Positions 1,920 through 18,278 of a stretch of 18,278 nt of DNA are shown here, in pieces. The notes below the pieces were generated by a model. It did no database searches, was not told the origin of the DNA, and saw only the letters and a list, made by a program, of their open reading frames with translations. Source of the stretch: Rhodospirillales bacterium (GTDB lineage Bacteria; Pseudomonadota; Alphaproteobacteria; Rhodospirillales; Casp-alpha2); NCBI GenBank assembly GCA_021775275.1, contig JAJFIE010000149.1:1-18278 (forward strand), given 5' to 3'. Within the stretch, counting starts at the first letter, position 1; every line of letters begins with the position of its first letter. The position numbers and the translations under genes are program-made.

Positions 1920-2185
1920 CTGAACCAATCCCTTGCTCGTGTTTCGTCTATGTGCTGGGTGCTGACGGACCCGGCGGATATCGCACCTATGTCGGCTGGA
2001 CCACGGATCTGGCCCGCCGCCTTGCGCAACACAATGCCGGAACGGGAGCACGGTCAACGCGGGGCCGTCAGTGGGCCTTACTCTACGCTGAAAGTTTCGA
2101 GACAAAAACCGGGGCCATGAGTCGGGAATGGCACCTCAAACGGGACAGGCGGTTCCGCAAAATGCTGAGTGACGCCAGATCATGA
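1916..2185 (+). CDS. GIY-YIG domain protein (small YhbQ/UPF0213-type)
   Basis: An 89-residue single-domain protein. The signature is modified but recognisable: FVYVL (residues 10-14, GIY position) and TYVGWT (24-29, YIG position). It continues with DLARRLAQHN containing the catalytic-type Arg34/35, then TGARSTRG and the helix MSREWHLKR with the metal-binding-type Glu71. An insertion of about nine residues (GADGPGGYR) separates the two strands. The start ATG lies inside the transporter's stop (ATGA at 1916-1919); the longer in-frame extension back to 1634 lies inside the transporter gene and is rejected. GIY-YIG proteins of this size are putative structure-specific nucleases; the role here is unknown. 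It is probably the last gene of the slyX-transporter unit. Confidence 0.88.
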   Translation: MTEPIPCSCFVYVLGADGPGGYRTYVGWTTDLARRLAQHNAGTGARSTRGRQWALLYAESFETKTGAMSREWHLKRDRRFRKMLSDARS

Positions 2186-3329: not shown

Positions 3330-5555
3330 ATGGCACGCAACCCGCGTTTATCCATCTTTATGAAAATACTCATCACCGGGTTCATCCTGCCCTTTCTGTT
3401 GAATATCCAGGGATCAGCACTTTCCACCGCATATGCTTGGGAGCGAACCCCCTTTGATCCGGTTTTCGCACCGGCGAATGGGCCGGGACAGGAAGAGATC
3501 GCCATCCCTCTCGATCAGCAGTTCAACGAAACCTTCATTGCCCAACAGAGAGGGGCTGGGGCGGTTATCCCGAAGGCTGCACAGGAACAGGATGATGGTC
3601 CATCTCCAGCGCTGGAAGCGGTCATGGAAAATGTTCGGAGCGTGACCTTAAGCGGAGTTGCGCCATCAGACACGAAGACGGATAAACCGGAAGTCCTGGC
3701 TAAATATCCCGGGACCGAAAATTCCAGATCGAGAATACGGTCCCGTCAGCACAACAGACCGGTAACCGGTGATGGACTGATTGCAGACCTGCTTCGCCTG
3801 TTCGGTTTTCGGGCAGATGGCGATACTGGAATTGAAACGGCGAACCGGGCCTCAAACGAGCAAACACGTGACACAAACGATGGCGCAATGCCTGTGGAGC
3901 CCGTAATATCGGCGGAATCCGTGGCCCAATCTGAGCCTGAGTATGTGCAGGAAACAGTGACGCCGGAACCGGTATTGCCGGCGCAGGCCGATGCTTCAAC
4001 ACCGGACGCGGTGGATTCAACGGGGGTTTTTCAGCAAATTACGACATGGTTCAAGGAAAACACCGAACCGGCCGATATTCCGGGCGAAACCCGATATCTG
4101 GTTCAGAGTGTCACCATTGATCTACCCCCGCCACTTGATGACGTTGTTGAGGTTGACAACTCCCCGGTGCTCGTGGACGACACCGTAAGTGGCGATGCGG
4201 GCGAACCTGAGGCTGAGATCACGATTGAGACCGGGATTGAGATCGAAGCCGAAATCGAGGCCAGGACCGGGATAGCGGCTGAAACCAAAACCGAAGCCGC
4301 AGACGCGGCGGATGCAGATCGAACGGAAATCACAAAGGTTACAACGGCTGATCCCGGGTTTTTTAGTCGACTGTTTGGTCAAAATCGGGAAGTTCCTGAA
4401 TCGCCCGCTGTGTCTCCTGTTGAACCACTCGAAAACCCGATGAAGGAAACCCCCGAACCGGTTGTGCAAGTCGATAAACCAGAGCAGCCTCGACAGATCG
4501 CTTCTCTGGCGTCAGAGACGGCGCCGCCATTGATCCCTGACGCGCCAATCCCCGATACTCCAGAGGCGCAGGCTCCGGCGCCGGTTATTGCTGTCCCCGA
4601 CATCGAACGAGCAGCGCCCAGCATCGAACGAAAAGGACCGCCGCCAAATTTCATTGATGTGGTCAGTTCGTTCTTCTCGGGTGAAAAAGTTACCTGGGCA
4701 AGGCGAGGCGGTGGTGAGCCGCCTGAACGCAATCAAGCAAGACAATCAACGCCACTTACAACGGCAGCACCTGCGACAAAAGAAACTGTGCCCGTTGCCG
4801 TGCAAAGCACAGTGCTTGTCGCGTCCCCGTCGGCTCCATCGAACGAGCCACAACAGACCCCGTTGGTGGATGCCGCTATCGCGGAGGCGCGGTGGCTCAA
4901 TATCGACCCCGCTGCTGAAACAGCATTCGCCGTCGATATTGCCGTTCCGGTGTCCGACAAGGTCAAAATTCTGGAAGAAAAGCTGATCCTGGGTGATGAG
5001 GGACATTTAGGCCGTGCGTTGCCATTCGGCGATGATCCAGGCGAGAATTGTGTTCGGCGGCTGGCAGGGCAAACCTGGATATGCCTGGAATCCCTTGGCT
5101 GGCCAGCGGTCATTTCCGATGCCTTCATGGCCCGTGGCGTGCCGGAAGGGCGGACCAAGGCGATTGTTCGTTATGACCGGGATGAGGCCACGCAATACCG
5201 TGTTTCCTTTCCAACGGGAAGTTTCGATCGCATGCGTTTCCACTTCGAATATCTGCTGGGACCACCCAGCAAACAAAAGGAGGTCCTGGTGGCATTATTC
5301 GGCGAGCCCAGACGCACCAACCGTGTGGTCCACTGGGTTGCTGAACAGGCCGGTGACAAGTCGCCAGCCATCCTGGAAATCCGTGAAATTGACGATATTC
5401 GCTGGATGGAATCACCCGATAAAACCAACGGTGTTGTTCGCCTTTACCGCACGGGCGCAAAACCCGTCTTCGCCATGGTCATGTCGGCCGATTTGCGCCT
5501 GATCGAAGTTCGTCGATTGTCCAACAGGAACAAGAATAAGACCGCAACGCCCTGA
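3330..5555 (+). CDS. Secreted/periplasmic protein of unknown function: acidic Pro/Glu-rich linker plus conserved-looking C-terminal domain
   Basis: I do not recognise a named family. It has 741 residues. Residues 1-36 form a signal sequence: basic start, hydrophobic core ILITGFILPFLLNI, likely cleavage after AYA36. Residues about 85-540 are low-complexity, acidic and Pro/Glu/Ala-rich, probably disordered, including an Ile-Glu quasi-repeat near 296-315. This linker carries four similar short hydrophobic motifs at residues 151-158, 234-241, 342-349 and 442-449 (IADLLRLF, FQQITTWF, PGFFSRLF, IDVVSSFF). The C-terminal part (about 545-730) looks folded: Cys574 and Cys585 around a WICLESLGWP stretch, a VRYDRDEATQYRVSFP strand region, and an EIREIDDIRWME segment. 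ATG 3330 is preferred because GAAGGCGAG precedes it; ATG 3360 has no ribosome site. The location beside a TolC/giant-protein locus suggests an envelope role, but that is inference. Confidence 0.75.
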   Translation: MARNPRLSIFMKILITGFILPFLLNIQGSALSTAYAWERTPFDPVFAPANGPGQEEIAIPLDQQFNETFIAQQRGAGAVIPKAAQEQDDGPSPALEAVMENVRSVTLSGVAPSDTKTDKPEVLAKYPGTENSRSRIRSRQHNRPVTGDGLIADLLRLFGFRADGDTGIETANRASNEQTRDTNDGAMPVEPVISAESVAQSEPEYVQETVTPEPVLPAQADASTPDAVDSTGVFQQITTWFKENTEPADIPGETRYLVQSVTIDLPPPLDDVVEVDNSPVLVDDTVSGDAGEPEAEITIETGIEIEAEIEARTGIAAETKTEAADAADADRTEITKVTTADPGFFSRLFGQNREVPESPAVSPVEPLENPMKETPEPVVQVDKPEQPRQIASLASETAPPLIPDAPIPDTPEAQAPAPVIAVPDIERAAPSIERKGPPPNFIDVVSSFFSGEKVTWARRGGGEPPERNQARQSTPLTTAAPATKETVPVAVQSTVLVASPSAPSNEPQQTPLVDAAIAEARWLNIDPAAETAFAVDIAVPVSDKVKILEEKLILGDEGHLGRALPFGDDPGENCVRRLAGQTWICLESLGWPAVISDAFMARGVPEGRTKAIVRYDRDEATQYRVSFPTGSFDRMRFHFEYLLGPPSKQKEVLVALFGEPRRTNRVVHWVAEQAGDKSPAILEIREIDDIRWMESPDKTNGVVRLYRTGAKPVFAMVMSADLRLIEVRRLSNRNKNKTATP

Positions 5556-5877
5556 TGCACCTCCTTGCCTGACCCACACGCGCAACTTGCTTGTTTTGGC
5601 TCCAAAATTCGATCCCTGTGTCATTTTGAAGGGCTTCGGTTCAAAAAAACTCATTACGAATCAATAGGTTTATGAATTGGAAATTGCCAAATCAGCAAAA
5701 ATTGTATAGAAGGCTGACCAAAGTGAAATCGCATAACATGATGATTTCGATGTATAATTTATGTGCCATGTGAAAGCGATTGCATTGTTGTTTCATCTGT
5801 GGCGAATTATAGTTAATGATCGACAGGTGTCTCGCTGGGAAAGCCGTCTGGCGTGGAGCGAAGACGAGGGAAATAGA
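5556..5877. other. AT-rich intergenic region upstream of the TolC-family gene
   Basis: About 320 bp without a supported gene, clearly more AT-rich (especially 5580-5765) than the flanking coding DNA. It holds a 7-bp perfect inverted repeat, TTTTGAA (5624-5630) and TTCAAAA (5640-5646), around a GGGCTTCGG loop. The repeat is followed by an A-run on the plus strand, which is a U-run on the minus strand. It also holds the -10 box described separately. The frame of the TolC gene is open back to an ATG at 5761, but that ATG has no ribosome site and lies right behind the -10, so I treat 5761-5877 as leader. Confidence 0.5.
5753..5758 (+). promoter_or_regulatory. Candidate -10 box (TATAAT) for the TolC/giant-protein unit
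   Basis: A perfect TATAAT preceded by TG in an AT-rich stretch. The -35 region 16-18 bp upstream (CGCATA area) is poor, so the promoter would need an activator or another sigma factor. The predicted start near 5765 lies downstream of ATG 5761, which argues that translation begins later, at TTG 5878, leaving a leader of about 110 nt. Confidence 0.35.
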
Positions 5878-7206
5878 TTGGTCGGACCCTTCAAACCATT
5901 CCGTTGGATTGGTAACAGCATGGGGGCGGTGTGTCTCTGTGTGAGTCTCACTGCGGGCTTTAGTGCGTCAATTTCGGCGGCGCCTTTGGTCGATGAGATC
6001 AGTGTGCTTATCGAGACCCACAATCGAATTCTTGCGGCGCAGGCCGACGAACGCGCCGCGCGCGAGCAGATTGCCGTATCGGAAGGCGACTGGAATCCTG
6101 AACTTTCCGTGACCACAAGCTACGGCTACGAGCGACAGCTCAAAGGAAATGCGACAGCGGATACCAGCATGCCGCCTCGTGATTTGACCATGTCGCTCAG
6201 CCAGTTGCTGTGGGACTTCGGCTCTACCGACGCCGGTATCGACAAAGCCCGCCTGACCCACAATCAGTCACAGTCGACTCTTGTATCCACGCGCCAATCG
6301 TTGATTCTCGAAGGGATCAGCGCCTATCTGGAAGCGTTGCGTACCCAGAAACTGATTTTGTTCGCCCGGGAATCTGTCGGAAATATCCGCCATCAGGCCG
6401 AACTGGAGGATTCTCGCGTACAACGTGGGTCCGGTTTCACGACGGATGTTCTACAGGCCAAGACCGAGCTAGCAGGCGCCGAGGCGCGCTTGGTTGCCGC
6501 TATTGGCGCCTTCAAGGTCGCCGCTAACCGATACCGGGCAGTATTTGGTCATGATCCGGGTCCGGTTGAAGACATGTATGCGCCCATGACCCCGTTCGCG
6601 GACATTCCCGAAACCATTGAGGCCTCGATTGAAGTCGCCATGCGGGATAATCCGGCCCTGGATGCGGCGGCGACGGCGGCGCGCATTGCGCGCGCAGACA
6701 TCAACATTACAGAGGCCGACGAATTTTACCCCCGGCTGGATGCGACCGCTGAAACGTCCTATCAGGAAGATGCCGAAGGAACGGTTGGTGAAAAAACCGA
6801 AAACCTTTTCAAGGTTGAATTGAGTTACGATTTCAACCTCGGCTTCACCGCATACAACACCCTCAGGGCTTCCGAGCAGGGCCATTTGGCGTTTGAAAAG
6901 CGTTACGAGGATGAAAAGGACCGGGTTGAGGAACAAATCCGTAATGCCTGGGATAATCTTGATACGGCGCGTTTGCGCGCGGATCATCTGACCAATCAGG
7001 CGAACATCGCGGGCGAGTTTCTGGAACTGGCCCAGCGGGAGCGGGAGCTGGGCAACCGCTCCCTGATTGATATTCTGCAAGCAGAAACACGGCTGATTAA
7101 CGCCAACAGTGACGCCACGTCCGCACGAACGGATGTGGCATTGGCGGTGTACAACCTGTTGTCCGCCATGGGTCATCTTGAACTGGATGTTCTTGTAGAA
7201 AATTAA
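5878..7206 (+). CDS. TolC-family outer membrane efflux/secretion channel
   Basis: Family knowledge: TolC-type proteins trimerise into an outer-membrane beta-barrel with a periplasmic helical tunnel and serve type I secretion or efflux. With the TTG start the protein has 442 residues, the normal size. It has a signal sequence (GPFKPFRWI, then hydrophobic MGAVCLCVSLTAGF, cleavage near ISAAP). Two outer-membrane-efflux repeats follow. The first has SEGDWNPELSVTTSYGYER, a beta-strand region SLSQLLWDFGSTDAGI and a helix with GSGFTTDVLQAKTEL. The second has NPALDAAATAARIARADI, FYPRLDATAETSYQED, LSYDFNLGFTAYNTLRASEQ and ELGNRSLIDILQAETRLINA. Start choice: TTG 5878 has GAGGGA (5866-5871) at good spacing and yields a proper signal peptide. 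ATG 5761 gives a long charged extension with no ribosome site, and ATG 5920 has no ribosome site. The gene lies 203 bp before the giant protein and probably exports it. Confidence 0.9.
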   Translation: MVGPFKPFRWIGNSMGAVCLCVSLTAGFSASISAAPLVDEISVLIETHNRILAAQADERAAREQIAVSEGDWNPELSVTTSYGYERQLKGNATADTSMPPRDLTMSLSQLLWDFGSTDAGIDKARLTHNQSQSTLVSTRQSLILEGISAYLEALRTQKLILFARESVGNIRHQAELEDSRVQRGSGFTTDVLQAKTELAGAEARLVAAIGAFKVAANRYRAVFGHDPGPVEDMYAPMTPFADIPETIEASIEVAMRDNPALDAAATAARIARADINITEADEFYPRLDATAETSYQEDAEGTVGEKTENLFKVELSYDFNLGFTAYNTLRASEQGHLAFEKRYEDEKDRVEEQIRNAWDNLDTARLRADHLTNQANIAGEFLELAQRERELGNRSLIDILQAETRLINANSDATSARTDVALAVYNLLSAMGHLELDVLVEN

Positions 7207-7237
7207 TAACCCGGAGGACCGGATTTCGTTTGCTGAA

Positions 7238-7266
7238 TTAACAAGACATTCCATAAAAGTTAATGT
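7238..7266 (+). promoter_or_regulatory. Weak candidate promoter for the giant gene
   Basis: TTAACA (7238-7243, five of six to consensus), a 17-nt spacer, then TAATGT (7261-7266, only three of six). The 203-bp spacer 7207-7409 is AT-rich near the TolC stop. It contains a short imperfect hairpin (TTCGCC 7288-7293 with GGCGAA 7312-7317) but no convincing terminator, so read-through from the TolC gene is equally possible. Confidence 0.2.
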
Positions 7267-7409
7267 ACTGTGAATAGCAAATTGGCGTTCGCCTTGAAGA
7301 AGTCATTGGCGGGCGAAAAGAAAACTGGCTTTCCGACGCCGCAACAATTCAATCTTGCAGCTCTTGACCGAAGGTAACGTGGCTTAACCACTTTAGCGGG
7401 GATTTAGCG

Positions 7410-10400
7410 TTGCCAAGAGAAGACCCGGGTCTGGAAAACGGCGCCAAAAACGCCGGGCAGACTGAAAACGGGAATCAGATTGTTGTCATTGAGGCAACCG
7501 ACGCGTCGGCAGTAAAAGTGCCGGGAGGCGGTTGGCTGTTACATGCAGATTTCTCCCATAAGGGTCCGGACCTTCTTATTACCGGCAAGAACGGCGAACA
7601 GGTCCTTGTTCGCGACTTCTTCAAAACCGCAAATCCACCAGACCTGACCACCGATGGCGGCCTGATCCTGAAAGGGGAAATTGCCGCCCGTCTCGCCGGA
7701 CCCCTCGCGCCGGGCCAGATCGCCCAGGCCGTCGACGGTTCTGCTGCGGAACCCATCGGACGCATTACCACGGTTGATGGCGACGTCGAGATCGAGCGGA
7801 TTGATGGCACGCGCCTGACCGTGGCGGAAGGCGACCCCGTCTATCAGGGCGACGTGGTCGTGACGACCGAGAACGGCGCCATTGACATCGAGTTCGCTGA
7901 CCTGTCCATCTTCTCGCTGGGTGGCGACGGTCGGATGGTTCTCGACGAAATGATCTACGATCCTGCTGAACAGGAAGGCGAGTTCGCCCTGTCCGTGGTC
8001 GCCGGCACGTTCTCGTTCATCAGCGGCAACATCGCCAAGACAGCGCCGGACGCAATGGTGCTCGACACCCCGGTGGCGACCATCGGCATTCGCGGCACCA
8101 CGGTCGCCGGCAGCGTTGGGGGTGAAGGCGCGGAAAACGCCATCAGCCTGCTGGCGGACCCCGACGGGTTCATCGGCGAGGTGGTGATTTCCAATGCCGC
8201 CGGTACGGTGGTCATGAGTTCACTGGGCGCAACGGTGGTCATGACCAGCTTCAATCAGGCGCCGCCGACGCCGGTCACCCTCAGCCCCGATGAAATCGAG
8301 CAGCAATACGGCAGCGTGGTTTCCGGTCTGACCCTGCCCCCCACGCCGGGGGAAGAACCGGAACAGCAGGGCGAGCAGCTAACTCCCCAAGAGATTCAGA
8401 CCCTGAGCGAATTCAATCAGGACATCGCAGAAGCCATCAACCAGGGAATCCAACAGCAGCAACTGTTCCAACAGCAATTCCAGCAGGCGCTAACGCAGGT
8501 TGATCGCATTCTCGCGCCCAAGGATATCCCGCCAGAGCTCATCCAGCAGGCATTTGCGGAAATTTCGGCGACCGTCGATCCCGGTTTCGGTGTTGCAGTA
8601 GACGCGTTTTCCACGAGCGTAACGGAAATATCCAGCGCCAGCACGGTGGCGGCGGCGGCTGAAACGGAAGCGGCCGCACAATCGATCACTATCAATTCCT
8701 CGGCAACCAGTTCGCTGAGCGCCTCGGATACCGGTCTGACACCGACCCAGGCAAATGATGTGGCGGATGTCATCACCTCGCCGCTGGATGCACTGAATGC
8801 GGCGGCGGCGATCTCGGCTGCTGCGGCGGCGCTCGCAAAAGTGAACGAGGCCGCCGCGACATTTGCCGCAACCGGTGAGGAAGTGCCGACGGCCATTCGG
8901 GAGGCGCTTGCCGTTGGTGCGTTACTATCGACGGCGGCAACCAATGTTCGCGCCATCATTGATGCGGTTGTGGCGGCCTCGACAACGGTTATCAACGCGG
9001 CGGTCCAGGCCGCCAAGGACAATCCCGGCGACGCCTATAATCAGGCGCTCGCCACGGCGGCATCGGCACAGGGTGCGGCGATAAACGCCCAACTGAGCAG
9101 TGCAAACGCCGGAATCGTTTATGCGAATTTGCAGACCATTCTCGACGGTGTCGCCAATGCCTTGACCACCATTTCGACCCTGATGAGTGCGGGCCCGGCG
9201 GCATTGCAATCGGCAGTAACCAGCACATTGGCGGCGGCAAGTAACGCCGTGACGGCGGCCGATTTATCTGCGGATGCCGCATTTTCCACCATTGATACAT
9301 CGGACCCGGCTCAGGCCATCATCCATGCCGCAACCGCCTCGACGCAGGCCGGGTTTGCGCAGGCCAAACTTCAGGACGCCGACGATGCCCTGATCAACTA
9401 CCAGCTTGTGGCGCCCATTGACGCGTCGGCCCGCACGGCGCTCTCCAGTTTGACAGCAACTGTCAACACCGCAGAATCCGGAGCGGTCGCAGCATCGCAA
9501 AGTATCGGTTCGGCACAAGAATTGCGCGCGGCGGCAGATCAGTTCCGAAGTGGCGCCGCCGGGACAGCCGTTACCGACGCACAGACTGCGCGCAATGCTG
9601 CGGCGGCGACTGCGGGTACGGAAAATGGACAAGCCGACACGGCGGCTGATGCTGTGCTCGCCGCCCGGTCCGTGCTGGTCACCAAGCTGGTGGCGGCGTT
9701 CGTCGCCAACGCCACACACCAGGCCTGGATTGATGCGGTCGCGGAAGCCCAGGCGCTGGTGGATGGCGCTCTCGGGACGGCCAATGATACGGCTGGCACA
9801 GCAACGGTCTTCGGCGCGCAGGCTTCACTGGATGCGGCGAACGCCGCCAAGAATAATCCACCCAGCGACCTTTCAGGATCTTTACTTGATGCCTATCTGG
9901 TTTTGCAGGACAAGCTGATCGCCAATGCCCAGGCAGAGCTGGATTTCCAGAACAGCGTCAAGACGTTGTTCGATAACACGCTGACGACGGCAAATGGCAA
10001 CCTCACCACGGCGGCAAATGATGCAGCCACGAAGCAGATCGCCGCAGATCAGGCTGAGTTGACCGTAGAGGGTCTGGTAACCGCAGCGGCGGGAACCGCC
10101 AACGGCGAAATTCTTCTGACCTCCAATATCTCGGGGATTTCGTTCAGCGTCGGCGTTGCGACGACGGATGCCGGTGGGGCAGATGTAACGTCCGATCTCA
10201 ATGGACTGGCTGATGCGGCGACGACGACCGGGACCGCGACCGTGGCGCAGGTGGATACCCTGACCCTGTCGGGTGCGGTGGAAGTCGGTGATATCTTTAG
10301 GGTCACGCTGACCGCAACAGACCTGACGCCGGACTTCGGGCCGGTGACGGTGAGCTATACGGTGACGAGTGCCGATACCACGCTGGCGGCGATCCGAAAC

Positions 10401-13400
10401 CAGTTAATCGATGCCATCAATACGAATGCCAGTATCGGTGGTCTTGAGGGCGTATTTGAGGCCGAACTGGATGACGCTCTGGTCGCGACACAGGCGTTAT
10501 CCACTGCTGATGTTACCCTCGCCAAGGCGGAAGGCTTCCTCGCTTTGGCGCAATCAGCCGCGCAGGCCGAGGCTCAGACTATTTTTGACAATGAAGTCGC
10601 CAAGGCGTTGGTGCAAGCTGACCTTGCTGCGGCGAAAGCGGCTGAGGCACAGACGGCCGCCGACCAGGCCCAGTTCTTCGCCCGCTTCCCCGTCGATGGT
10701 GTGAGATTGGCTGACAAAGCGCTGGCTGAACAGAATGCCATTGTTGCAGGCGGCGCATCCGAGGAAGACACGGTTCGTTTCGGTGGTACGTTCTCGGCTG
10801 GCGAAACCGTCACCATTGATTTGGGCGCCGCCGGGTCGGCCACCTATACGATTACGAACAACATTCTGACGCTTGCCAATCTTGAGTCCGCGCTCGTCGA
10901 TTTCGTTAATAACAACACAACACTTAACGTGACGGTCGAAGCCATTCCGGAAGTGGAGGATGGCGAGGACGGTGTCGTAAAAATCCGCGCCCTCGCCCGG
11001 CCCGGAGAGATTGATCTTACGGTAACGGAAAATGGCGGTTCACTGACCGTTGCAACCACCACAACGACGCTGAGTCAGTCTGGCGCCGAACAGGCGGCCG
11101 AGGCCGCTGCGGCTGCGGCGGCAACGGCTGCCCAGAATGTTGCAACGTTCGCCCAAAACGACGACCTGAGCCAGGACCCCGCCGCCGTCGCGGCGCGCGC
11201 CAAAGCCTTGGCGTCTGTACAGGCCGCATCAGCGCAGGCAGCCCAATCGGCGGCAGCGGCCCAGGCGTCCGGTGATACCGCGTGGTCGGCATCCGACCTG
11301 GCCGACGTGATTAATCCAACGTCGCATAATCCCGACGCGTTGGCTGCCGACCTTGCCGCCAAGCAGCAGGCTGAAGCTGATGCCAAGGCGCTGGAGGCCG
11401 CAGAAAAGGCCGCCGCCGCACTCGCCAAACAACAGGCCCAGCAAGCTGAAATCAACAAGACCGTTGCGGAACTGAATGCGCTCCGCGACGCCAATGATGC
11501 GGCGGATGCTGCTTTTGATGCACACCTGTCAGCCAACGGTGTCCTGACCGCCCGCACTGGCAGCGCCGATGGTAAAATCACGCTGACCTCCAATATTGCG
11601 GGTGTTGAACTTGACGGAACCGTGACGATATCTGGCAGTTCATCCGGCGCCCTTGCGACCACGACGACGAAGTCGTCTTCGACGGCGCAGGTCGATACGC
11701 TGACCATATCGGGAACACCCGCCGCGGGGGACACATACACGCTTTCTGTCTCGGTCAATCAGATCGACAACGTTGTCATCACGGGGACGCCGGAAGCTGG
11801 CGACACCTACTCTGTCACGATCAATGGCGCCACGGCGACGTACACCACAACGGGAACCGAGACCGGTCTGTCCGGCATCCGTAACGGTTTGGTCAGCGCC
11901 ATTAATGCGGCGGGTGGTGGTACCAGCGCCGTAACGGCGGCGTCAGGCGCCAATGTTGGCGAATTGACCCTGACGGCGAATTCATCAGGAACGGCGTTTG
12001 CCTCATCCGCTACTGCCACAAAGGTGGCTGGCGGTGTCGCAGATAACTTTGCGCAAGCCTATACAACGGTTCAAAATTTCGCATCCACGTCGGTGAGCTA
12101 TACGGCAACCGGCAGTGAAGGCGGCCTCGCCGGTGTCCGTAATGCATTGATCGACACCATCAATCAGAGTACCGGATTGGCAGGCCTGCGTGGTACGGCG
12201 GCCAAGGCGGCAGTGGACGCGGCAGCGGCGGCGCTTCAGGCGCAGCAGGCCGAAGCAAGAGCCGCCACGACGGCTGAAGAAATTACCCAACGCGCCAGCG
12301 ATGTAAATACCGCAGCAGCGAACGCCGTTACAGCAGCTACGGCAGCTAAGACGGCGGCGGATGCCGCCGCAACGGCCAGCGCTGAGGCACAGCTACGCGC
12401 CGATGCTGCAACCGCTGCAGCTGATGGCGCCAGTGGGGCTGCCGCACGGGAGGCCGAGCGCGCCAACAATGCATCGGCAAGTGCTTCACAGGGCTCGGGC
12501 GCGGCGGCAAATTCCTCCAGTAGTGCGGATGCGTCATCTGATACCGCGACGGCAGCCGCTGATCTGCAAACGGCGCAGGATCAGGCTTCCGAACTGGCCG
12601 ACGCGGCGGCGGCGGCGGCGACTGCGGCGGCGGCGCAAGCGGCGGCAGATGCCCAGGCGGCGGCCGATCAGGCAGCAACGGATAAGGCAGCGGCGGAAAC
12701 GTTGGCAACGCAACAGGCGGCGGCATTTGCACAAACCGCCCTGGAGCAGGCGGATGCCGCCAGCAGTTTCGCAACGCTCGGGGCTGCGGCAGCCAAGAAT
12801 GTCAATGCGGCGCTGGCGGCCACTTTTGCCGATCAGGCCCAGGCAGCAGCAGACGCTGCGCAGGCCGCCGCGAACGCGGCAGCAGATGCTGCGGCGGGCA
12901 AAGGAACGGCAGCGTTCGACCAGTCGCAATTGGCAGCAAGCCGCGCAACAGCCGCGAGCACCAGTGCGGGCGCGGCCGCCGCATCAAGCCAGATTGCGTC
13001 CGATGCCGGTTTGGCGGCGATCGCATGGACCGATGGCACAGCATCCTCCGACCGGTTGGCGGCAGCCAAGACCGCCGCAGCGGCCCAGGCTGCTGCGGCG
13101 CGCGCAGCGGACGCCGCATCGTCGGCGTCGGATGATGCAGCGCAAGCCGCACAGGATGCCGTCGCTCCAAATGTGGCGAAGGCGGCGGCGGAAGCCGCCG
13201 TTGCGTCACGCACGGCATCGCTGGCACAGGTTCAGGCGAAGCGTGTTGCGGCTGATGACGGTGACGATACCACCGATACGGCGATTGAGTCCGTCTGGGA
13301 TTCGGCGATCACTCAGGCGCAATCGGCGTTAGCGGATGCGCAATCGGCGCTTGCCGACGCCACGGCGGCGGCGGCGGCGGCGGATCAGGCCAAGACGGTC

Positions 13401-16400
13401 GCGGAAGGGCGTGCGTCGGCAGCGGGGGATGCTGCTGCGGACGCAGCAGCGGCGGCGGGAGAGGCGGCGTCTGACGCAGGCTTCGCCGCAGCCTTCGAAA
13501 TCGGTGCTCAAGCCTCGGCCCAGTTCAAGGTGGACGCGGCTCTCGCCGATATTCTGACCAAGGTCGCAGACGCCACCAACACCGCCAAGACCGAGGCCAG
13601 CGAGGCCGAGGCCGAGGCAACCACTGCGGCCGGTCTCGCCGCAAGTGATACATTTGTCACCGAGGATGCTGCCGCAGCGAACACGGCAGCCGCAAATGCG
13701 GATACCGCCAGCATTGATGCGACGCAGACGATCCTGGACGCGTTATCGCTGCTAAGCCCCGGCCATGGCATTACGTTGGGCACGAGTTCGGCAGCTGACC
13801 TGCTCAGCGCCGCATCCCAGGCGGCGGACGCCATTCAGGCGCTGGCAAATGGTTTCGTTGACGATGACGATATTGATCTGGCGGCCCTTGCGGTTGATCC
13901 CACGACAGGACTGATCGCGGCACAGAACGCCGCTGACCTTGCGCAGATTGCGTTGAAGAATTCCATCCTGGCGGCAGTTGATTCGCTGGAACAGACAATT
14001 GGCTCTGCCATCGCCAGTGCTGAAACAGCGGATGCGCAGGCCCTGGTGGCAAACCTGAACGCTGATCGTGAAGTCCTGCGACAGGCCGCCGCGCGCTCGG
14101 ACCTTGACGCGGCCCAGGCGGCGGCAAACGCCGAGGCCAACCGGGCATCGGCGGAATCCAAAAGCGCGGCATCGGATGCGGAAGCGGCAACCGCGCGCGC
14201 CTCCGACGCACAGGCAGCCATTGATGCGGCAGCGTTGGCGCAAGCAGCTTCTGGTCGAGCTGCACAAGCGGTAATCGACTCCGGCGCCAGCCTGTTGGCA
14301 GCGCAAGGCGCCAGATCGACGGCAATTCAACAGGCTGATTTGGCGGCCACGGCGTTCGCCAACGCGGCCGGCGCCAGCAGTATTGATCCACGGGCATTTC
14401 AGGCTGCAAAGCAGGCAAATGATCGGGCGCAGGCAGCCAAGCAGGCCGCAGTCAAAGCCGTTACCGAAGTCAAGGCGGCGTTCGATGCGGCGACGGATGC
14501 AGCGAAGATTGCGTTAGCGGAAGCCACCAAGGCGCAGACGGCGGCTGACTCTGTGGACCTGACAGCAGCCAACTCGGCAGCGACGGCAGCAAGCAATGCA
14601 GCGACGGCAGCCAATACGGCAGCCGGCAGTGCAGCGACGGCGGCTGGGAACGCGCAGGCACTGGATGATACAGACGTCAACCTCACGTCGGCACAAATTC
14701 AGGCACTGGTGGCCACGGCGCGTGGCTTTGTTTCCGATGCATCCGGTTTCGCTGATACAGCAGCTCTGCAGGCGACAACAGCGTCAACTGCGCTTGCCAC
14801 TGTGCCCTTGGCCGCCGAAGCCCGCCGAGATGCACAGACGGCGGCGGATGCGGCCCAGTCCGCGGCGGCGACCGCCAGCGGCGTGGCGCAGGTCGATACA
14901 ATCACCATCTCCGGCACCGTAGAAGTGGACGACGTTTATTCGGTCACGGTTGGCGCCAAGACCACTACCTATACGGTGATTGCTGAAGATGTTGCGGGTG
15001 GCATTGATGCGGTCCGCAGCAAGCTGGTTCTGGCCATAAACAATGACACATCCGGCACCGGAGGAATTGTACTGGCGTCAGATGGCGCCGATACGGGGCA
15101 ACTGATCCTGACCGCTATCAACGCCGGTATCTCGTTCTCAACCAGTGCGCAAGGAACCAACGGCGCGGACATTACAGATAACGCGGCATCGGTTGCGACC
15201 ACCACGGCGAACCTCGGCGGCGCGTCGGAAGTGGCGCAGATTGATACGGTAACCATCGTCAACTCCGTGACGGCGGGTCATACCTATTCGCTAACCATCG
15301 ACGGCAATACGGTTTCATATACGGCGGTTGGCGGTGATGACGCTGAAGCGGTTCGTGATCAGTTAATCGGTAAAATCAATGCCAGTACCGATATTGTTGC
15401 TGTTGTTGATATCACGACTGACGCCAGCATCACCAACGAGTTCACCCTGACGGCAGATACCGCCGGGGTTGCGTTTAGCGCCAGTTTACTGGTGACCGAC
15501 AACACCAATGCGGCGGTCAACAACAAGGCGTCGGTTGCGACGACAACGGCGAACCTGAAAGGCGCCGACGATCTGGCTTCGTCTGCTGCGACGGAAGCCG
15601 CCACCCAGGCAGGCATAGTTGCAACGGAACTGGCGAATGCGCAGAGCGCATCGGCCCAGGCCGTGAAGTCCATAGAAGCCAATGACTGGGCCACAGCGGG
15701 CCAGGCGGCGGCGAGCGGTGCGACACCTGCAAAGACAGCAGACACCGCCGATATTACCATTGATACCGCGCAGGAGGGTGATACCTATAGCGTCACGGTG
15801 AATGGCCAGAAGTTCTCCCATGTGGCGGTAAATGGCGACACAACAGCGACCATTGCCACTCAATTATTCACGGATATCGGCACTGCGATCACGAACAACA
15901 ATGCGAATTTGACGGGACTGACGGTGAGCAATCCCAGTGCCGGAACCATCAGTATTACTGGTAGCAATATCGATACGGTGGCGACGGATGACGGGTTTAC
16001 CATCACCACGAAGGTTATCGATAGCAATACCGCCAATGCTGCGGGCACGTCGAGCGTCAGCATTACTGATTTTGATGTAACCAATGCAGCGGCAATTGCC
16101 GGGGTCGCGGATGATGCCCTGGCAGCGGCCAAGGCACAGGCTTCCATTGCCATTGCATCAGGCGTTTCCGTCGCGGATGCCGATGCAGCAGCCGAAGCGG
16201 CGGTGGATGCCCTGATTGCAGCGGCGGCGCGCCTGGACATCAGCATTACGGCTAATGTCACCAGCACGCAGGATGACAACGTTCAGCGCATCTCGGACGC
16301 CGTAACAGCTATCAAACTGGCGGCGACAGGTGTTGCCGACGCAGCACTGGCTGAATTGACGGGTATGGCAACCACACTGGGTGTGACCCTTACCGCCGTC

Positions 16401-18278
16401 AGTGGCACACGAACAGCGCAGGCGGAAGCGCTTGGCGTTCAGCTAAAAGCAGCGCTGACGGCTGCCATTGATATCGTAAATGATTCAAGCGTGTCGGCCG
16501 TTGCCAAGACCCTGGTACAGGATGCCGGGGACGCGATTGACGAAGCAGTTGCCGCCATAAAATCGGCAGATCGTAGCGCATCGGCGGCGGCGGACGCCAT
16601 GGATGCGGCGGCGGCTCAGGCTACACTGGCATCGGCTTCCGGCACCCAGATTCTCACCCTGCGGCTGGATGCGGCGGAAGAAACCTACAATTCCGCATTA
16701 CAGGAAGCGTCCTCTGCCGACGCCGCGGCTGATCTGTCTGCCGGTGAAGCACAAAACGCAGCGATCCGCGCCCTGACCGAAGCAAAAATCGCCATGGAGG
16801 CGGTTGATGCGACGTTGAACACAGCGTTGAGTTATGAAGCAAAACAGGTTGATGCGAATTATGTCAGCCCGGCCAGCCCGGGCTCGGTCGATCTGAGTGA
16901 TGCAACGACGGTACCGGGCGCACTGAATGCGGCTGGTGTGGCCGCCAGCGGGGCCGACGGAACCGGTGGCGCTCTCGCCACCATCATTCAGGCAATCAGC
17001 GATCTAACAGCCAAGACCGGCAACTGGACAACGGCAGGGTCAGATTCAGCCGCCGCGCTGAATTCTGTCATATCGGCGATCGATACCGCCATTGATACCA
17101 CCCAGCAAACCTATCTGGTAACTATTGCAAATACGATCTCGGGTGGCGACAGCTTTACCGCCACGTTCGATACGCAAGGCGGCGGCAGTGAAACAATCAC
17201 GGTGACTGTTGGCGCCGGTCTTACGGCGGCGGCGGACATTCGTGACGCGATTGTGACAGCACTGGATGTCGCTACGGGGTTCAGTGCGGCGGCAGGGTTC
17301 GATGATGATGAACTTGTCCTGACGGCAGACAGCGTAACAGCGTTCTTTGCCGTGACCTTCAATAATTCGGGTGTCGTCGCAACAGAGTCCGATACGGAAG
17401 CCGGTCTCGGCGCCCTTCGCGCCGGATTGCAAACCGCATCCGTCACCGCGTCCAACATTCAGGGCGATGTAACGACGGCCACGGCGGCCGCCGGTACGAC
17501 CGATGCGATCGATCAGGCCTTTACGGGGGACACCGTGGCGACGCTGGACAACACCAGCGGCGATGCGGTTGCCGATACAATCACGAGTTCAATTTTCACC
17601 ACATTGGATGCTGATCTCGATGAGCCGACTGTCTCCAATGCGGAAAATCTGGCCACTCTGGCGGAGCAATCTGCGACCTCGGCATCCGGCGCAGCCGTCG
17701 ATGCGGCAAACAGCGCCGCCCTGGCCGCTGCGCGGCTGGCTGCTGCCGAACAAGGCTCGGCGCAGGCTGAAGCGGGCCAGGTTCAATTTGAGCAGTTTGT
17801 CGCCAAGGCCACCGAACAACTGGCCCTGAAGGCTGCACAGGAAGCCGCCGCTGCGGTGCCAATCGCCGGTGATGATACGGCGGGCAACGATCCCGCCCGG
17901 AATGATGATGACGGCAATGCCGATGTACTCGAGGACAACAGCGTCATCATCAATGTGCTGGCCAATGATACGCGCACCGATCTGACCGCCTTGACCAATC
18001 CTTCTATCGCTTCTGTCGGCGCAGCGGCTAACGGCACAGTCACGATTATTGCCCAGGCCGATACGGTCACCCTTTCAGGTATCGCGGACACCAACACTGT
18101 CACGGTAACCGTCAACGGCGTCAGCGTGACCATTACAGCCAGTGGTACTGATCAGGATGCCATTCGCGACGCCCTGGTCCAGGCCATCAATACCGACGCC
18201 GCATTGGGCGCTGTTGTTGAAGCCACCGCCGACAGTAGCACGGTAGGCGCGTTGACCTTGTCCGCGTTTGTCCCTGGC
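7410..18278 (+). CDS. Giant FecR-domain, Ala-rich repeat protein; probable type I secreted surface adhesin, 3' end outside window
   Basis: One frame runs from TTG 7410 to the window end without a stop: 3623 codons, continuing. The start has GGGGA (7398-7402) seven bases upstream, and no in-frame ATG/GTG lies between it and the stop at 7365. Order of parts by residue: N-terminal module 1-116 (WLLHADFSHKGPDLLITG, LAGPLAP); FecR-like domain about 117-285; Gln-rich linker about 295-368; Ala-rich helical blocks from about 405 to 3482, interrupted by beta-rich modules; tandem-95/cadherin-like segment from 3483. There is no signal peptide, I saw no in-frame cysteine, and aromatic residues are scarce. 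These traits fit a type I secretion substrate with a C-terminal signal, and the neighbouring TolC-like gene supports that. No RTX nonapeptide is visible in the part seen. I cannot tell whether the role is adhesion, stalk or S-layer-like, or what it binds. Confidence 0.85.
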   Translation, partial: MPREDPGLENGAKNAGQTENGNQIVVIEATDASAVKVPGGGWLLHADFSHKGPDLLITGKNGEQVLVRDFFKTANPPDLTTDGGLILKGEIAARLAGPLAPGQIAQAVDGSAAEPIGRITTVDGDVEIERIDGTRLTVAEGDPVYQGDVVVTTENGAIDIEFADLSIFSLGGDGRMVLDEMIYDPAEQEGEFALSVVAGTFSFISGNIAKTAPDAMVLDTPVATIGIRGTTVAGSVGGEGAENAISLLADPDGFIGEVVISNAAGTVVMSSLGATVVMTSFNQAPPTPVTLSPDEIEQQYGSVVSGLTLPPTPGEEPEQQGEQLTPQEIQTLSEFNQDIAEAINQGIQQQQLFQQQFQQALTQVDRILAPKDIPPELIQQAFAEISATVDPGFGVAVDAFSTSVTEISSASTVAAAAETEAAAQSITINSSATSSLSASDTGLTPTQANDVADVITSPLDALNAAAAISAAAAALAKVNEAAATFAATGEEVPTAIREALAVGALLSTAATNVRAIIDAVVAASTTVINAAVQAAKDNPGDAYNQALATAASAQGAAINAQLSSANAGIVYANLQTILDGVANALTTISTLMSAGPAALQSAVTSTLAAASNAVTAADLSADAAFSTIDTSDPAQAIIHAATASTQAGFAQAKLQDADDALINYQLVAPIDASARTALSSLTATVNTAESGAVAASQSIGSAQELRAAADQFRSGAAGTAVTDAQTARNAAAATAGTENGQADTAADAVLAARSVLVTKLVAAFVANATHQAWIDAVAEAQALVDGALGTANDTAGTATVFGAQASLDAANAAKNNPPSDLSGSLLDAYLVLQDKLIANAQAELDFQNSVKTLFDNTLTTANGNLTTAANDAATKQIAADQAELTVEGLVTAAAGTANGEILLTSNISGISFSVGVATTDAGGADVTSDLNGLADAATTTGTATVAQVDTLTLSGAVEVGDIFRVTLTATDLTPDFGPVTVSYTVTSADTTLAAIRNQLIDAINTNASIGGLEGVFEAELDDALVATQALSTADVTLAKAEGFLALAQSAAQAEAQTIFDNEVAKALVQADLAAAKAAEAQTAADQAQFFARFPVDGVRLADKALAEQNAIVAGGASEEDTVRFGGTFSAGETVTIDLGAAGSATYTITNNILTLANLESALVDFVNNNTTLNVTVEAIPEVEDGEDGVVKIRALARPGEIDLTVTENGGSLTVATTTTTLSQSGAEQAAEAAAAAAATAAQNVATFAQNDDLSQDPAAVAARAKALASVQAASAQAAQSAAAAQASGDTAWSASDLADVINPTSHNPDALAADLAAKQQAEADAKALEAAEKAAAALAKQQAQQAEINKTVAELNALRDANDAADAAFDAHLSANGVLTARTGSADGKITLTSNIAGVELDGTVTISGSSSGALATTTTKSSSTAQVDTLTISGTPAAGDTYTLSVSVNQIDNVVITGTPEAGDTYSVTINGATATYTTTGTETGLSGIRNGLVSAINAAGGGTSAVTAASGANVGELTLTANSSGTAFASSATATKVAGGVADNFAQAYTTVQNFASTSVSYTATGSEGGLAGVRNALIDTINQSTGLAGLRGTAAKAAVDAAAAALQAQQAEARAATTAEEITQRASDVNTAAANAVTAATAAKTAADAAATASAEAQLRADAATAAADGASGAAAREAERANNASASASQGSGAAANSSSSADASSDTATAAADLQTAQDQASELADAAAAAATAAAAQAAADAQAAADQAATDKAAAETLATQQAAAFAQTALEQADAASSFATLGAAAAKNVNAALAATFADQAQAAADAAQAAANAAADAAAGKGTAAFDQSQLAASRATAASTSAGAAAASSQIASDAGLAAIAWTDGTASSDRLAAAKTAAAAQAAAARAADAASSASDDAAQAAQDAVAPNVAKAAAEAAVASRTASLAQVQAKRVAADDGDDTTDTAIESVWDSAITQAQSALADAQSALADATAAAAAADQAKTVAEGRASAAGDAAADAAAAAGEAASDAGFAAAFEIGAQASAQFKVDAALADILTKVADATNTAKTEASEAEAEATTAAGLAASDTFVTEDAAAANTAAANADTASIDATQTILDALSLLSPGHGITLGTSSAADLLSAASQAADAIQALANGFVDDDDIDLAALAVDPTTGLIAAQNAADLAQIALKNSILAAVDSLEQTIGSAIASAETADAQALVANLNADREVLRQAAARSDLDAAQAAANAEANRASAESKSAASDAEAATARASDAQAAIDAAALAQAASGRAAQAVIDSGASLLAAQGARSTAIQQADLAATAFANAAGASSIDPRAFQAAKQANDRAQAAKQAAVKAVTEVKAAFDAATDAAKIALAEATKAQTAADSVDLTAANSAATAASNAATAANTAAGSAATAAGNAQALDDTDVNLTSAQIQALVATARGFVSDASGFADTAALQATTASTALATVPLAAEARRDAQTAADAAQSAAATASGVAQVDTITISGTVEVDDVYSVTVGAKTTTYTVIAEDVAGGIDAVRSKLVLAINNDTSGTGGIVLASDGADTGQLILTAINAGISFSTSAQGTNGADITDNAASVATTTANLGGASEVAQIDTVTIVNSVTAGHTYSLTIDGNTVSYTAVGGDDAEAVRDQLIGKINASTDIVAVVDITTDASITNEFTLTADTAGVAFSASLLVTDNTNAAVNNKASVATTTANLKGADDLASSAATEAATQAGIVATELANAQSASAQAVKSIEANDWATAGQAAASGATPAKTADTADITIDTAQEGDTYSVTVNGQKFSHVAVNGDTTATIATQLFTDIGTAITNNNANLTGLTVSNPSAGTISITGSNIDTVATDDGFTITTKVIDSNTANAAGTSSVSITDFDVTNAAAIAGVADDALAAAKAQASIAIASGVSVADADAAAEAAVDALIAAAARLDISITANVTSTQDDNVQRISDAVTAIKLAATGVADAALAELTGMATTLGVTLTAVSGTRTAQAEALGVQLKAALTAAIDIVNDSSVSAVAKTLVQDAGDAIDEAVAAIKSADRSASAAADAMDAAAAQATLASASGTQILTLRLDAAEETYNSALQEASSADAAADLSAGEAQNAAIRALTEAKIAMEAVDATLNTALSYEAKQVDANYVSPASPGSVDLSDATTVPGALNAAGVAASGADGTGGALATIIQAISDLTAKTGNWTTAGSDSAAALNSVISAIDTAIDTTQQTYLVTIANTISGGDSFTATFDTQGGGSETITVTVGAGLTAAADIRDAIVTALDVATGFSAAAGFDDDELVLTADSVTAFFAVTFNNSGVVATESDTEAGLGALRAGLQTASVTASNIQGDVTTATAAAGTTDAIDQAFTGDTVATLDNTSGDAVADTITSSIFTTLDADLDEPTVSNAENLATLAEQSATSASGAAVDAANSAALAAARLAAAEQGSAQAEAGQVQFEQFVAKATEQLALKAAQEAAAAVPIAGDDTAGNDPARNDDDGNADVLEDNSVIINVLANDTRTDLTALTNPSIASVGAAANGTVTIIAQADTVTLSGIADTNTVTVTVNGVSVTITASGTDQDAIRDALVQAINTDAALGAVVEATADSSTVGALTLSAFVPG
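7758..8264 (+). other. FecR-like domain of the giant protein
   Basis: Residues about 117-285 show the FecR pattern: GRITTVDGDVEIER, then GDPVYQGDVVVTTENG, an acidic IDIEFAD strand, an FALSVVAGTFSFISG strand pair, and the diagnostic TPVATIGIRGTTVAG. In classical FecR this periplasmic fold transmits signals to a sigma factor. Here it is fused to a signal-less giant protein with no FecI-type gene nearby, so its role is more likely structural or retention-related. The fold call rests on motif recognition. Confidence 0.82.
8292..8513 (+). other. Gln-rich linker of the giant protein
   Basis: Residues 295-368 are rich in Gln and Glu (IEQQYGS, GEEPEQQGEQ, INQGIQQQQLFQQQFQQ), with many CAG/CAA codons in near-tandem arrangement at 8450-8490. 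It separates the FecR-like domain from the Ala-rich region. It resembles a flexible or helical linker; no function is assigned. Confidence 0.6.
8622..10100 (+). repeat. Ala-rich helical block 1 of the giant protein
   Basis: Residues about 405-897, roughly a third Ala, with Ser/Thr/Asp/Gln making up most of the rest. Helices of A-xx-A-xxx spacing are broken by short polar loops containing D/N/P (AKDNPGDAYNQ, TIDTSDPAQA). Predicted all-alpha, coiled coil or helical hairpins. Confidence 0.65.
10101..10241 (+). repeat. Orphan C-terminal half of the beta-module (H1)
   Basis: Residues 898-944 (NGEILLTSNISGISFSVGV, then a Thr-rich tail) match the second half of the full modules, for example GQLILTAINAGISFST in copy 4, but no first half precedes it. 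Copy 1 follows directly. Confidence 0.6.
10242..10463 (+). repeat. Beta-module copy 1
   Basis: Residues 945-1018: AQVDTLTLSGAVEVGDIF, an insertion, then VSYTVTSADTTLAAIRNQLI and DAINTNASIGG. Shared pattern: DT[LIV]T[IL][SN]G, GD.Y..T, V.YT, IR..L..AIN. The second half is replaced by Ala-rich sequence. Confidence 0.7.
10464..10760 (+). repeat. Ala-rich helical block 2
   Basis: Residues 1019-1117: helical Ala/Gln/Glu-rich linker (LALAQSAAQAEAQ, AAKAAEAQTAADQAQ) between beta-module copies 1 and 2. Confidence 0.6.
10761..11078 (+). repeat. Beta-module copy 2 (divergent)
   Basis: Residues 1118-1223: EEDTVRFGGTFSAGETVTID, SATYTITNNILTLANLESAL, VKIRALARPGEIDLTV and a Thr-rich tail (ATTTTTLSQ). Same order of elements as the other copies, but the AIN motif is replaced by DFVNNNT. 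Confidence 0.6.
11079..11567 (+). repeat. Ala-rich helical block 3
   Basis: Residues 1224-1386. A run of Ala-rich helix, a loop with DDLSQDPAAV, a second helix, the Trp-containing loop DTAWSASDL, then a Lys/Glu-richer coiled coil (ADAKALEAAEKAAAALAKQQ). Confidence 0.6.
11568..11684 (+). repeat. Orphan C-terminal half of the beta-module (H2)
   Basis: Residues 1387-1425: DGKITLTSNIAGVELDGTV and a Ser/Thr-rich tail. It is nearly the same as H1 (GEILLTSNISGISF) and again sits directly in front of a full module. Confidence 0.6.
11685..12035 (+). repeat. Beta-module copy 3, with doubled first strand pair
   Basis: Residues 1426-1542. The opening element occurs twice in a row (AQVDTLTISGTPAAGDTY and NQIDNVVITGTPEAGDTY). 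It is followed by VTINGATATYTTTGTE, IRNGLVSAINAAGGG and GELTLTANSSGTAF. Confidence 0.7.
12087..12194 (+). repeat. Orphan N-terminal half of the beta-module (H3)
   Basis: Residues 1560-1595: TSVSYTATGSEGGLAGVRNA, LIDTINQST. It matches the YT...G...IR..L..AIN portion only and is followed at once by Ala-rich sequence. Confidence 0.6.
12195..14882 (+). repeat. Ala-rich helical block 4, the longest (about 896 residues)
   Basis: Residues 1596-2491, almost unbroken Ala-rich helix with Asp/Gln/Ser/Thr. Internal near-repeats include tandem AQSALAD units (13318-13361) and SAATAASNAATAA-type units (14572-14650). CGG/GCG runs occur at 12604-12618 and 13363-13383. Loops carry D/N/P or Trp (AWTDGTASSDR, ESVWDSAI, SSIDPRAF). 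If it were one continuous helix it would span about 130 nm; helical hairpins would be shorter. Confidence 0.65.
14883..15230 (+). repeat. Beta-module copy 4
   Basis: Residues 2492-2607, a full-length example: VAQVDTITISGTVEVDDVYS, TTTYTVIAED, IDAVRSKLVLAINNDTSG, GQLILTAINAGISFST, tail SVATTTANLGG. Directly tandem with copy 5. Confidence 0.75.
15231..15572 (+). repeat. Beta-module copy 5
   Basis: Residues 2608-2721: VAQIDTVTIVNSVTAGHTYS, TVSYTAVGGDD, VRDQLIGKINAS, FTLTADTAGVAFSA, tail SVATTTANLKG. The tails of copies 4 and 5 are almost identical in DNA as well, pointing to tandem duplication. Confidence 0.75.
15573..15743 (+). repeat. Ala-rich helical block 5 (short)
   Basis: Residues 2722-2778: ATEAATQAGIVATELANAQS helix and the Trp loop EANDWATAG, between beta-module copies 5 and 6. 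Confidence 0.55.
15744..16070 (+). repeat. Beta-module copy 6
   Basis: Residues 2779-2887: TADITIDTAQEGDTYSVTVN, FSHVAVNGDTTATIATQL, DIGTAITNNNANLTGLTV, GTISITGSNIDTV, DGFTITTKV. More divergent in the AIN region. Confidence 0.65.
16071..17108 (+). repeat. Ala-rich helical block 6
   Basis: Residues 2888-3233, helical Ala/Asp-rich (ADAAAEAAVDALIAAAARLD, ASAAADAMDAAAAQATLASA), with the Trp loop KTGNWTTAG near its end. Val/Leu/Ile content is somewhat higher than in block 4. Confidence 0.6.
17109..17399 (+). repeat. Beta-module copy 7 (divergent)
   Basis: Residues 3234-3330: TYLVTIANTISGGDSFTATF, ETITVTVGAGLTAAADIRDA, IVTALD, DDELVLTADSVTAFFAVTF. Same order of elements as in copies 3-5. Confidence 0.6.
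17400..17855 (+). repeat. Ala-rich helical block 7
   Basis: Residues 3331-3482: last helical stretch (NAENLATLAEQSATSASGAA, AALAAARLAAAEQ, QLALKAAQEAAAA) before the cadherin-like segment. Confidence 0.55.
17856..18050 (+). other. Tandem-95 / cadherin-like segment
   Basis: Residues 3483-3547: AGDDTAGNDPARNDDDGN, then VLEDNSVIINVLANDTRTD and NPSIASVGAAANGTVTI. This is the opening signature (ED...INVLANDT...GTVTI) of extracellular Ig/cadherin-like repeats common in giant surface adhesins, which often bind calcium through Asp residues. The expected completion (DGTVTYTP-like) does not follow; beta-module copy 8 starts instead. Confidence 0.7.
18051..18278 (+). repeat. Beta-module copy 8, cut by window end
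   Basis: Residues 3548-3623: AQADTVTLSGIADTNTVTVT, VSVTITASGTDQDAIRDALV, QAINTDAALG, GALTLSAFVPG. Nearly full; it continues beyond the window. Confidence 0.7.

Follow-up and report, generated by a model that had tools for sequence, protein, structure and literature searches.

A repeated module in a giant open reading frame

The window, that is, the whole stretch of DNA analysed here (18,278 nucleotides; contig JAJFIE010000149.1 of the Rhodospirillales bacterium assembly GCA_021775275.1), is a complete contig of a metagenome-assembled genome (MAG) that is 74% complete. Its main feature is a giant adhesin-like open reading frame (ORF) with nine units of a module of about 95 residues. One and the same profile finds this module in all of its hosts; it is shared among rod-forming proteins, occupies sites that are filled in some orthologues and empty in others, occurs nested in its own copy, and is found in permuted order.

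The profile was built from 101 modules of flagellar proteins, without any adhesin module (consensus VAQVDTVTLAGTVEAGDVYSVTVNGTTVSYTVTGAEASLDAVRDALVAAINANATVSALVTAAAAAAGEITLTADTAGTAFTTTASATNGGAT). It recovers all eight copies noted in a preliminary description of this DNA, at 14.5-92.4 bits, and two additional half-modules (16.8 and 10.6 bits); the best score among 200 versions of the giant protein, shuffled within blocks of 50 residues, is 5.7 bits. The repeats are real, and every start that had been claimed lies on a genuine copy in the one ORF, although the copies at 10764, 15762 and 17103 are weak and divergent. The features are as follows.

7410..18278, plus strand: giant adhesin-like ORF of 3623 amino acids, TTG start uncertain, open at the contig end
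10083..10451, plus strand: m1, permuted, with its C half (about 10083-10178) ahead of its N half (10242-10439; 48.6 bits from 10242)
10761..11051, plus strand: m2 (34.7-35.5 bits with a broad profile; 14.5 bits with the flagellar-only profile, from 10764)
11538..11630, plus strand: C half of the outer, permuted module of m3 (10.6 bits over 11460-11630; predicted strands)
11682..11753, plus strand: N part of the outer module of m3, profile positions 1-23 (18.0 bits)
11754..12044, plus strand: complete inner module nested in m3 (92.4 bits)
12081..12194, plus strand: remainder of the outer module of m3, profile positions 24 on (16.9 bits; the matches at 18.0, 92.4 and 16.9 bits all fall within 11682-12287)
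14880..15170, plus strand: m4, first of a tandem pair (67.5 bits; AlphaFold2 model)
15228..15521, plus strand: m5, second of the tandem pair (69.1 bits)
15735..16031, plus strand: m6, divergent (17.0 bits flagellar-only; 15.0 bits in a second profile search)
17100..17393, plus strand: m7, divergent (15.8 bits flagellar-only; 38.2 bits in the second profile search)
17889..18047, plus strand: first half of a Big_9-like domain into which m8 is inserted (PF17963, 20.0 bits over 17889-18113 against a cut-off of 23.6; aligns with the repeats of contig C233)
18048..18278, plus strand: m8, truncated by the contig end (45.2 bits)

The preliminary description counted eight single copies with one common order of elements. 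All eight are present, but the copy at 11685 is two modules, one within the other, and in the copies at 10242 and 11685 the GxLxLT part precedes DTxTxSG (a circular permutation). The observation is therefore confirmed in part, and its interpretation is supported in part. The copy at 18051 is genuine, although it is cut by the contig end and preceded by half of another domain. The impression that no named domain fits exactly agrees with the Pfam search of 40 modules (E <= 1), in which no family matched more than four and the best single match was T6_Ig_like at 5.1e-4; the 40 modules did not qualify as a bacterial Ig-like repeat (Big, cadherin-like) or as a member of another Pfam family. The likeness to the flagellin/FliD 'IN' motif fails as a family relationship, since Flagellin_IN (PF07196) matches just one of the 40, at E 0.029. 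Two further matches are taken as chance: Glyco_hydro_65C in a module-bearing FlgL-like protein outside those 40 (22.2 bits against a cut-off of 22) and streptokinase as a relative of solved structure, with the tandem pair as the query (E 0.16). The divergent m6 also weakly matches Phage_nozzle (18.1 bits, below the cut-off of 27).

The module is predicted to form a compact fold, strand-strand-strand-helix-strand-strand-strand, like that of a phage tail sheath domain. By a same-fold test the model agrees, across the whole module, with residues 91-186 of the sheath protein of cyanophage A-1(L) (PDB 8KEE), and phage tail proteins give the top matches both in structure and in PHROG. A mixed profile scores 23.1 bits against phage sheath. 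The hosts themselves are not phage tail sheath proteins: no sheath family is among their Pfam matches, and they are FecR/RTX adhesins and FlgE, FlgK and FlgL-like proteins. Module-like sequence was also seen by tblastn in proteins of cyanophages S-CAM3 (L003) and KBS-P-1A (L094) that are annotated as virion structural or hypothetical.

Nesting, permuted order and empty sites

Over 11682-12194 the profile positions run from 1 to 23, then through a whole module (1-91), then from 24 onwards; the window's own profile agrees. The cut is near the turn between predicted strands 2 and 3 of the outer module. By alignment this arrangement is common to P0002, G014, G002 and G019, and in G119 the inner module begins and then the contig ends. 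At this place all three further relatives examined (G017, G037 and G006, which share a genus code) carry the outer module but lack the inner one, and parsimony therefore suggests that the outer module is older and that the inner one was inserted afterwards. Nesting is also found in flagellar FlgE: in G081 one module encloses another, the split being at about position 35, and in G057 the profile series 2-35, 2-35, 4-94, 30-95, 37-97 is three deep (these two genomes share one genus code). Neither the cut points nor the host proteins are the same, and so we presume that nesting arose more than once. An automated rule flags 5 of 74 proteins as nested; it misses G002 and G019.

In m1 and in the outer module of m3 the C half comes first and the N half follows, the cut being after AIN. 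The C halves are the two additional half-modules, that of m1 within 10005-10178 (16.8 bits) and that of m3 within 11460-11630, and the predicted strands of the nested region are consistent with this order. A FlgL-like protein of G005 (L124:8389-12252, 1288 residues) begins its array with a lone C half, followed by five full modules and one more match (profile 1-88); its frame is three to four times as long as the FlgL models it matches.

Empty sites are also seen elsewhere. The module m1 (residues 892-1014) is absent in all five relatives compared (P0002, G014, G019, G119 and G002), where the Ala-rich stretch runs uninterrupted through the site. Contig C233, from the same genome, has four complete cadherin-like repeats; two carry a module, both at the same place, and the other two are without it; the position of m8 in its Big_9-like domain corresponds to that place. 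The FlgE module of L127 sits directly before a D2 strand ('LVFGSKG' in L127, 'LTFDSKG' in L131), and FlgE of L131, L133, L143 and L152 is without a module at this site.

Some origins of the copies can be set aside. A recent duplication inside the window does not account for m1, whose best match is 30 bases at 87% in DNA and 35% identity in protein. Insertion with target-site duplication is not indicated, as exact words shared within 45 bases of the borders are at chance level (five sites). With the same border words and no DDxP in the window protein, a DDxP insertion module was also rejected.

A separate observation concerns L120 (contig C233), where two modules (matches 2332-2419 and 2435-2511) at residues ~2230-2610 (locus 6690-7830) are flanked by what appear by eye to be halves of one repeat-rich 'VDPxTG' domain, possibly a further host fold.

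Hosts, distribution and neighbouring genes

Besides the adhesins, the module is present in FlgE (recognised from the Pfam models for D1, D2 and the C terminus and from names in the source, for example 'flagellar hook protein FlgE'), in FlgK (PF22638) and in FlgL-like proteins (NCBIfam flagellin/FlgL models, with matches below the cut-offs). In G157 three adjacent genes for FlgE, FlgK and a FlgL-like protein all carry modules, and the hook protein of the window's own genome (contig C507) has three module matches. The 30 FlgE loci compared are those that best match a single module-bearing hook protein (162 of 248 genomes matched) and are not a random sample. Of these, 19 contain one or more modules and 11 contain none; the number per protein is 0 to 3 with nested pieces counted once, and one further hook protein has six matches. 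Twelve Azospirillum plasmid records, two of them annotated as hook-complex protein, match modules of FlgL-like proteins only; plasmids searched with the window's tandem pair gave no match.

A query with the nested region matches 64 of 150 relatives (E <= 1e-3). Of 398 genomes drawn from the whole phylum, 3 match the module profile (E <= 1e-8), the window's own genome among them; the two counts come from different queries and different cut-offs. Judging from them, the module is concentrated in one order. A protein of a Pseudomonas MAG (P0003) has 23 module matches head to tail. A protein search with a short query yielded none of 86 candidates at E <= 0.001.

The module tree was made from 22 of 65 hook proteins (chosen at random), the 30 FlgE loci and selected adhesin, FlgL, FlgK and FlgE frames, L069-L092 being left out; 34 of 268 rows with profile coverage under 85% were dropped. 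In the resulting tree (234 rows, few columns, without phage rows) there are 17 changes between adhesin and flagellum, of which well-supported branches force only 3, and the nearest rows are mostly positional counterparts. For these reasons transfer between adhesin and flagellum looks real but not frequent.

The remaining features of the host protein and its surroundings are as follows.

5761..7206, plus strand: TolC-family outer membrane protein, likely the export channel partner (Pfam OEP, 3e-51)
7851..8150, plus strand: FecR domain (PF04773, 31.5 bits, above the cut-off of 24)
8607..10082, plus strand: Ala-rich block 1, likely helical (judged by composition)
12195..14861, plus strand: Ala-rich block 2, likely helical (composition; first residues modelled as helix)

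The Ala-rich nature of the host had been pointed out correctly: Ala makes up 22-50% in 18 of 21 windows of 100 residues (residues 401-2500). The product is probably a secreted or exported adhesin. By the marks of an RTX adhesin of the type I secretion system (T1SS; BapA/LapA type), FecR passes its cut-off, a weak BapA_N-like stretch upstream of it (residues 47-75; PF22783, 19.5 bits) is below the cut-off of 27, and the neighbour is TolC-like (TIGR01844 type_I_sec_TolC, 2.9e-65, 220.9 bits, just below the cut-off of 225.15). RTX is seen only on a homologue and on the separate contig C233, the window gene being cut by the contig end. The homologue, a frame of 8686 residues, continues with Big_9/cadherin-like and LamG lectin-like domains, RTX repeats and a serralysin-type C terminus, a layout which by sequence is that of a type I-secreted adhesin; on C233 a frame of 2738 residues has cadherin-like, FG-GAP and RTX parts. 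The named relatives of the N-terminal part (14 loci) are Rhodospirillales, Rhodospirillaceae and Alphaproteobacteria MAGs and one Caenispirillum, which suggests Rhodospirillales as the order in question.

Between a rhodanese-like gene and the TolC gene, 3330-5555 (plus strand) encodes a Pro/Glu-rich protein of 741 residues with a likely N-terminal membrane anchor, which had no match in Pfam, NCBIfam or PADLOC; PADLOC gave nothing for the two proteins preceding the adhesin. At 1634-2185 (plus strand) an ORF with a GIY-YIG domain overlaps the end of an EamA transporter ORF (984-1919) in a different frame. Related genomes have very large open frames, if real, of 18810 (G019, contig C143), 15059 (G136, C103) and 14707 residues (G083, C1).

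Interpretation and comparison with known systems

In our view the module, about 95 residues long, probably serves as a portable knob on cell-surface rods, as it sits in the likely helical stretches of the adhesin, in its own copy and in the flagellar hook proteins of relatives. Its two ends are presumably close together, which would let it enter exposed loops while the host fold stays intact. Each copy would project sideways from the rod and might make many weak multivalent contacts with glycans, matrix or surfaces, or shield the rod; this part is drawn by analogy with split-domain adhesins (parts of PMC12077191) and with extra sheath domains (parts of PMC9230969). New copies would most likely come from rare illegitimate recombination and spread through recombination among existing ones. 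The chances seem to us even that one may go further and speak of a protein-level 'mobile element' in one bacterial order, which would have entered helices, cadherin-like repeats, the flagellar hook and junction proteins and, to a depth of three, its own copies, and would exist in two circular phases. Adhesins and flagella would then share interchangeable surface knobs.

The D3 and D4 domains of FlgE are thought to stiffen the hook. The modules may likewise be purely structural, stiffening, spacing or capping segments of rod or hook and binding nothing, which we regard as a possible, less favoured account. FlgE additions are proposed to influence hook stiffness (parts of PMC5069557), extra sheath domains may cement the tail (parts of PMC9230969), and in our reading the profile consensus holds no catalytic or ligand motif. 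However, hooks with such varying numbers of modules are presumably functional, and insertion in cadherin-like repeats and Ala-rich stretches alike favours display over one specific stiffening contact. It is unlikely that this is an ordinary tandem-repeat adhesin, with spacer repeats once head to tail and later parted by Ala-rich expansion, nothing portable, and the C-N units as remnants of array edges. Head-to-tail modules do exist in P0003 and in one FlgL-like protein, m4 and m5 are still in tandem, and the C-N units would be in the phase of a cut tandem array. This account is strained by the empty sites: the Ala-rich block is continuous where m1 is missing, and single modules lie inside FlgE D2 and cadherin-like repeats with known empty counterparts. 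Whole modules inside others, in adhesins and FlgE, also speak against it.

Another account is independent capture of a generic phage fold: adhesins and flagella would each have taken their modules from phage tail proteins, and the likeness between the two sets would reflect shared phage ancestry. We consider this very unlikely. The structural and PHROG matches and the cyanophage proteins agree with it. Yet the flagellar-only profile reaches 92 bits on adhesin modules, far more than the mixed profile scores on phage sheath, adhesin and flagellar modules interleave in the tree, and the module is concentrated in one order.

The natural pairs of filled and empty sites represent whole-domain insertion into an Ala-rich helical stretch, an Ig-like repeat and its own copy, partly in permuted order and with the host ORF kept open. 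They offer a test system for domain insertion and permutation in evolution and a natural display scaffold. The flagellar hook and junction and the type I-secreted adhesins, usually studied apart, are also linked by having one surface module in common, with the predicted fold of a phage tail protein; from this one would expect a ligand or a protective role common to both. Neither the fold nor the idea of inserted domains is new. In searches of the open-licence PMC literature no title or abstract opening described the module or its nesting; as far as these searches go, one uncatalogued module across flagellum and adhesin, self-nested and permuted, is apparently new.

The A-1(L) domain is part of a phage sheath protein, whereas the hosts of the module are rod proteins of bacteria, probably exported, which hold many copies of it, with nesting and permutation; extra sheath domains are proposed to aid adhesion or stability (parts of PMC9230969). 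GbpA domain 2 and the flagellin p5 beta-domain have different host proteins and gave no sequence match in a profile search of solved structures. Unlike the outer domains of flagellin and FliD (D2/D3; Flagellin_IN), the module is inserted into its host, and FlgE orthologues without it exist. The DDxP proteins, as described in parts of PMC7730722, are probably T1SS-exported and show 'growth by insertion' of modules, with 'empty' homologues; here the modules are of about 95 residues and nested, without the DDxP motif and with border words not above chance. In the 'split domains' of RTX adhesins a ligand-binding domain emerges from within another domain (parts of PMC12077191), whereas in the present case it is a single repeated module that buds out; this module is found also in itself and in Ala-rich stretches, and its ligand binding is putative. 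A flagellar parallel in parts of PMC5069557 is FlgE D3/D4 of Campylobacter and Caulobacter, large domains that interrupt D2 midway, with D3 folds wholly different between the two species; the module is likewise inserted in D2, but here one and the same module recurs, within one order, in adhesins as well as in FlgE, FlgK and FlgL-like proteins.
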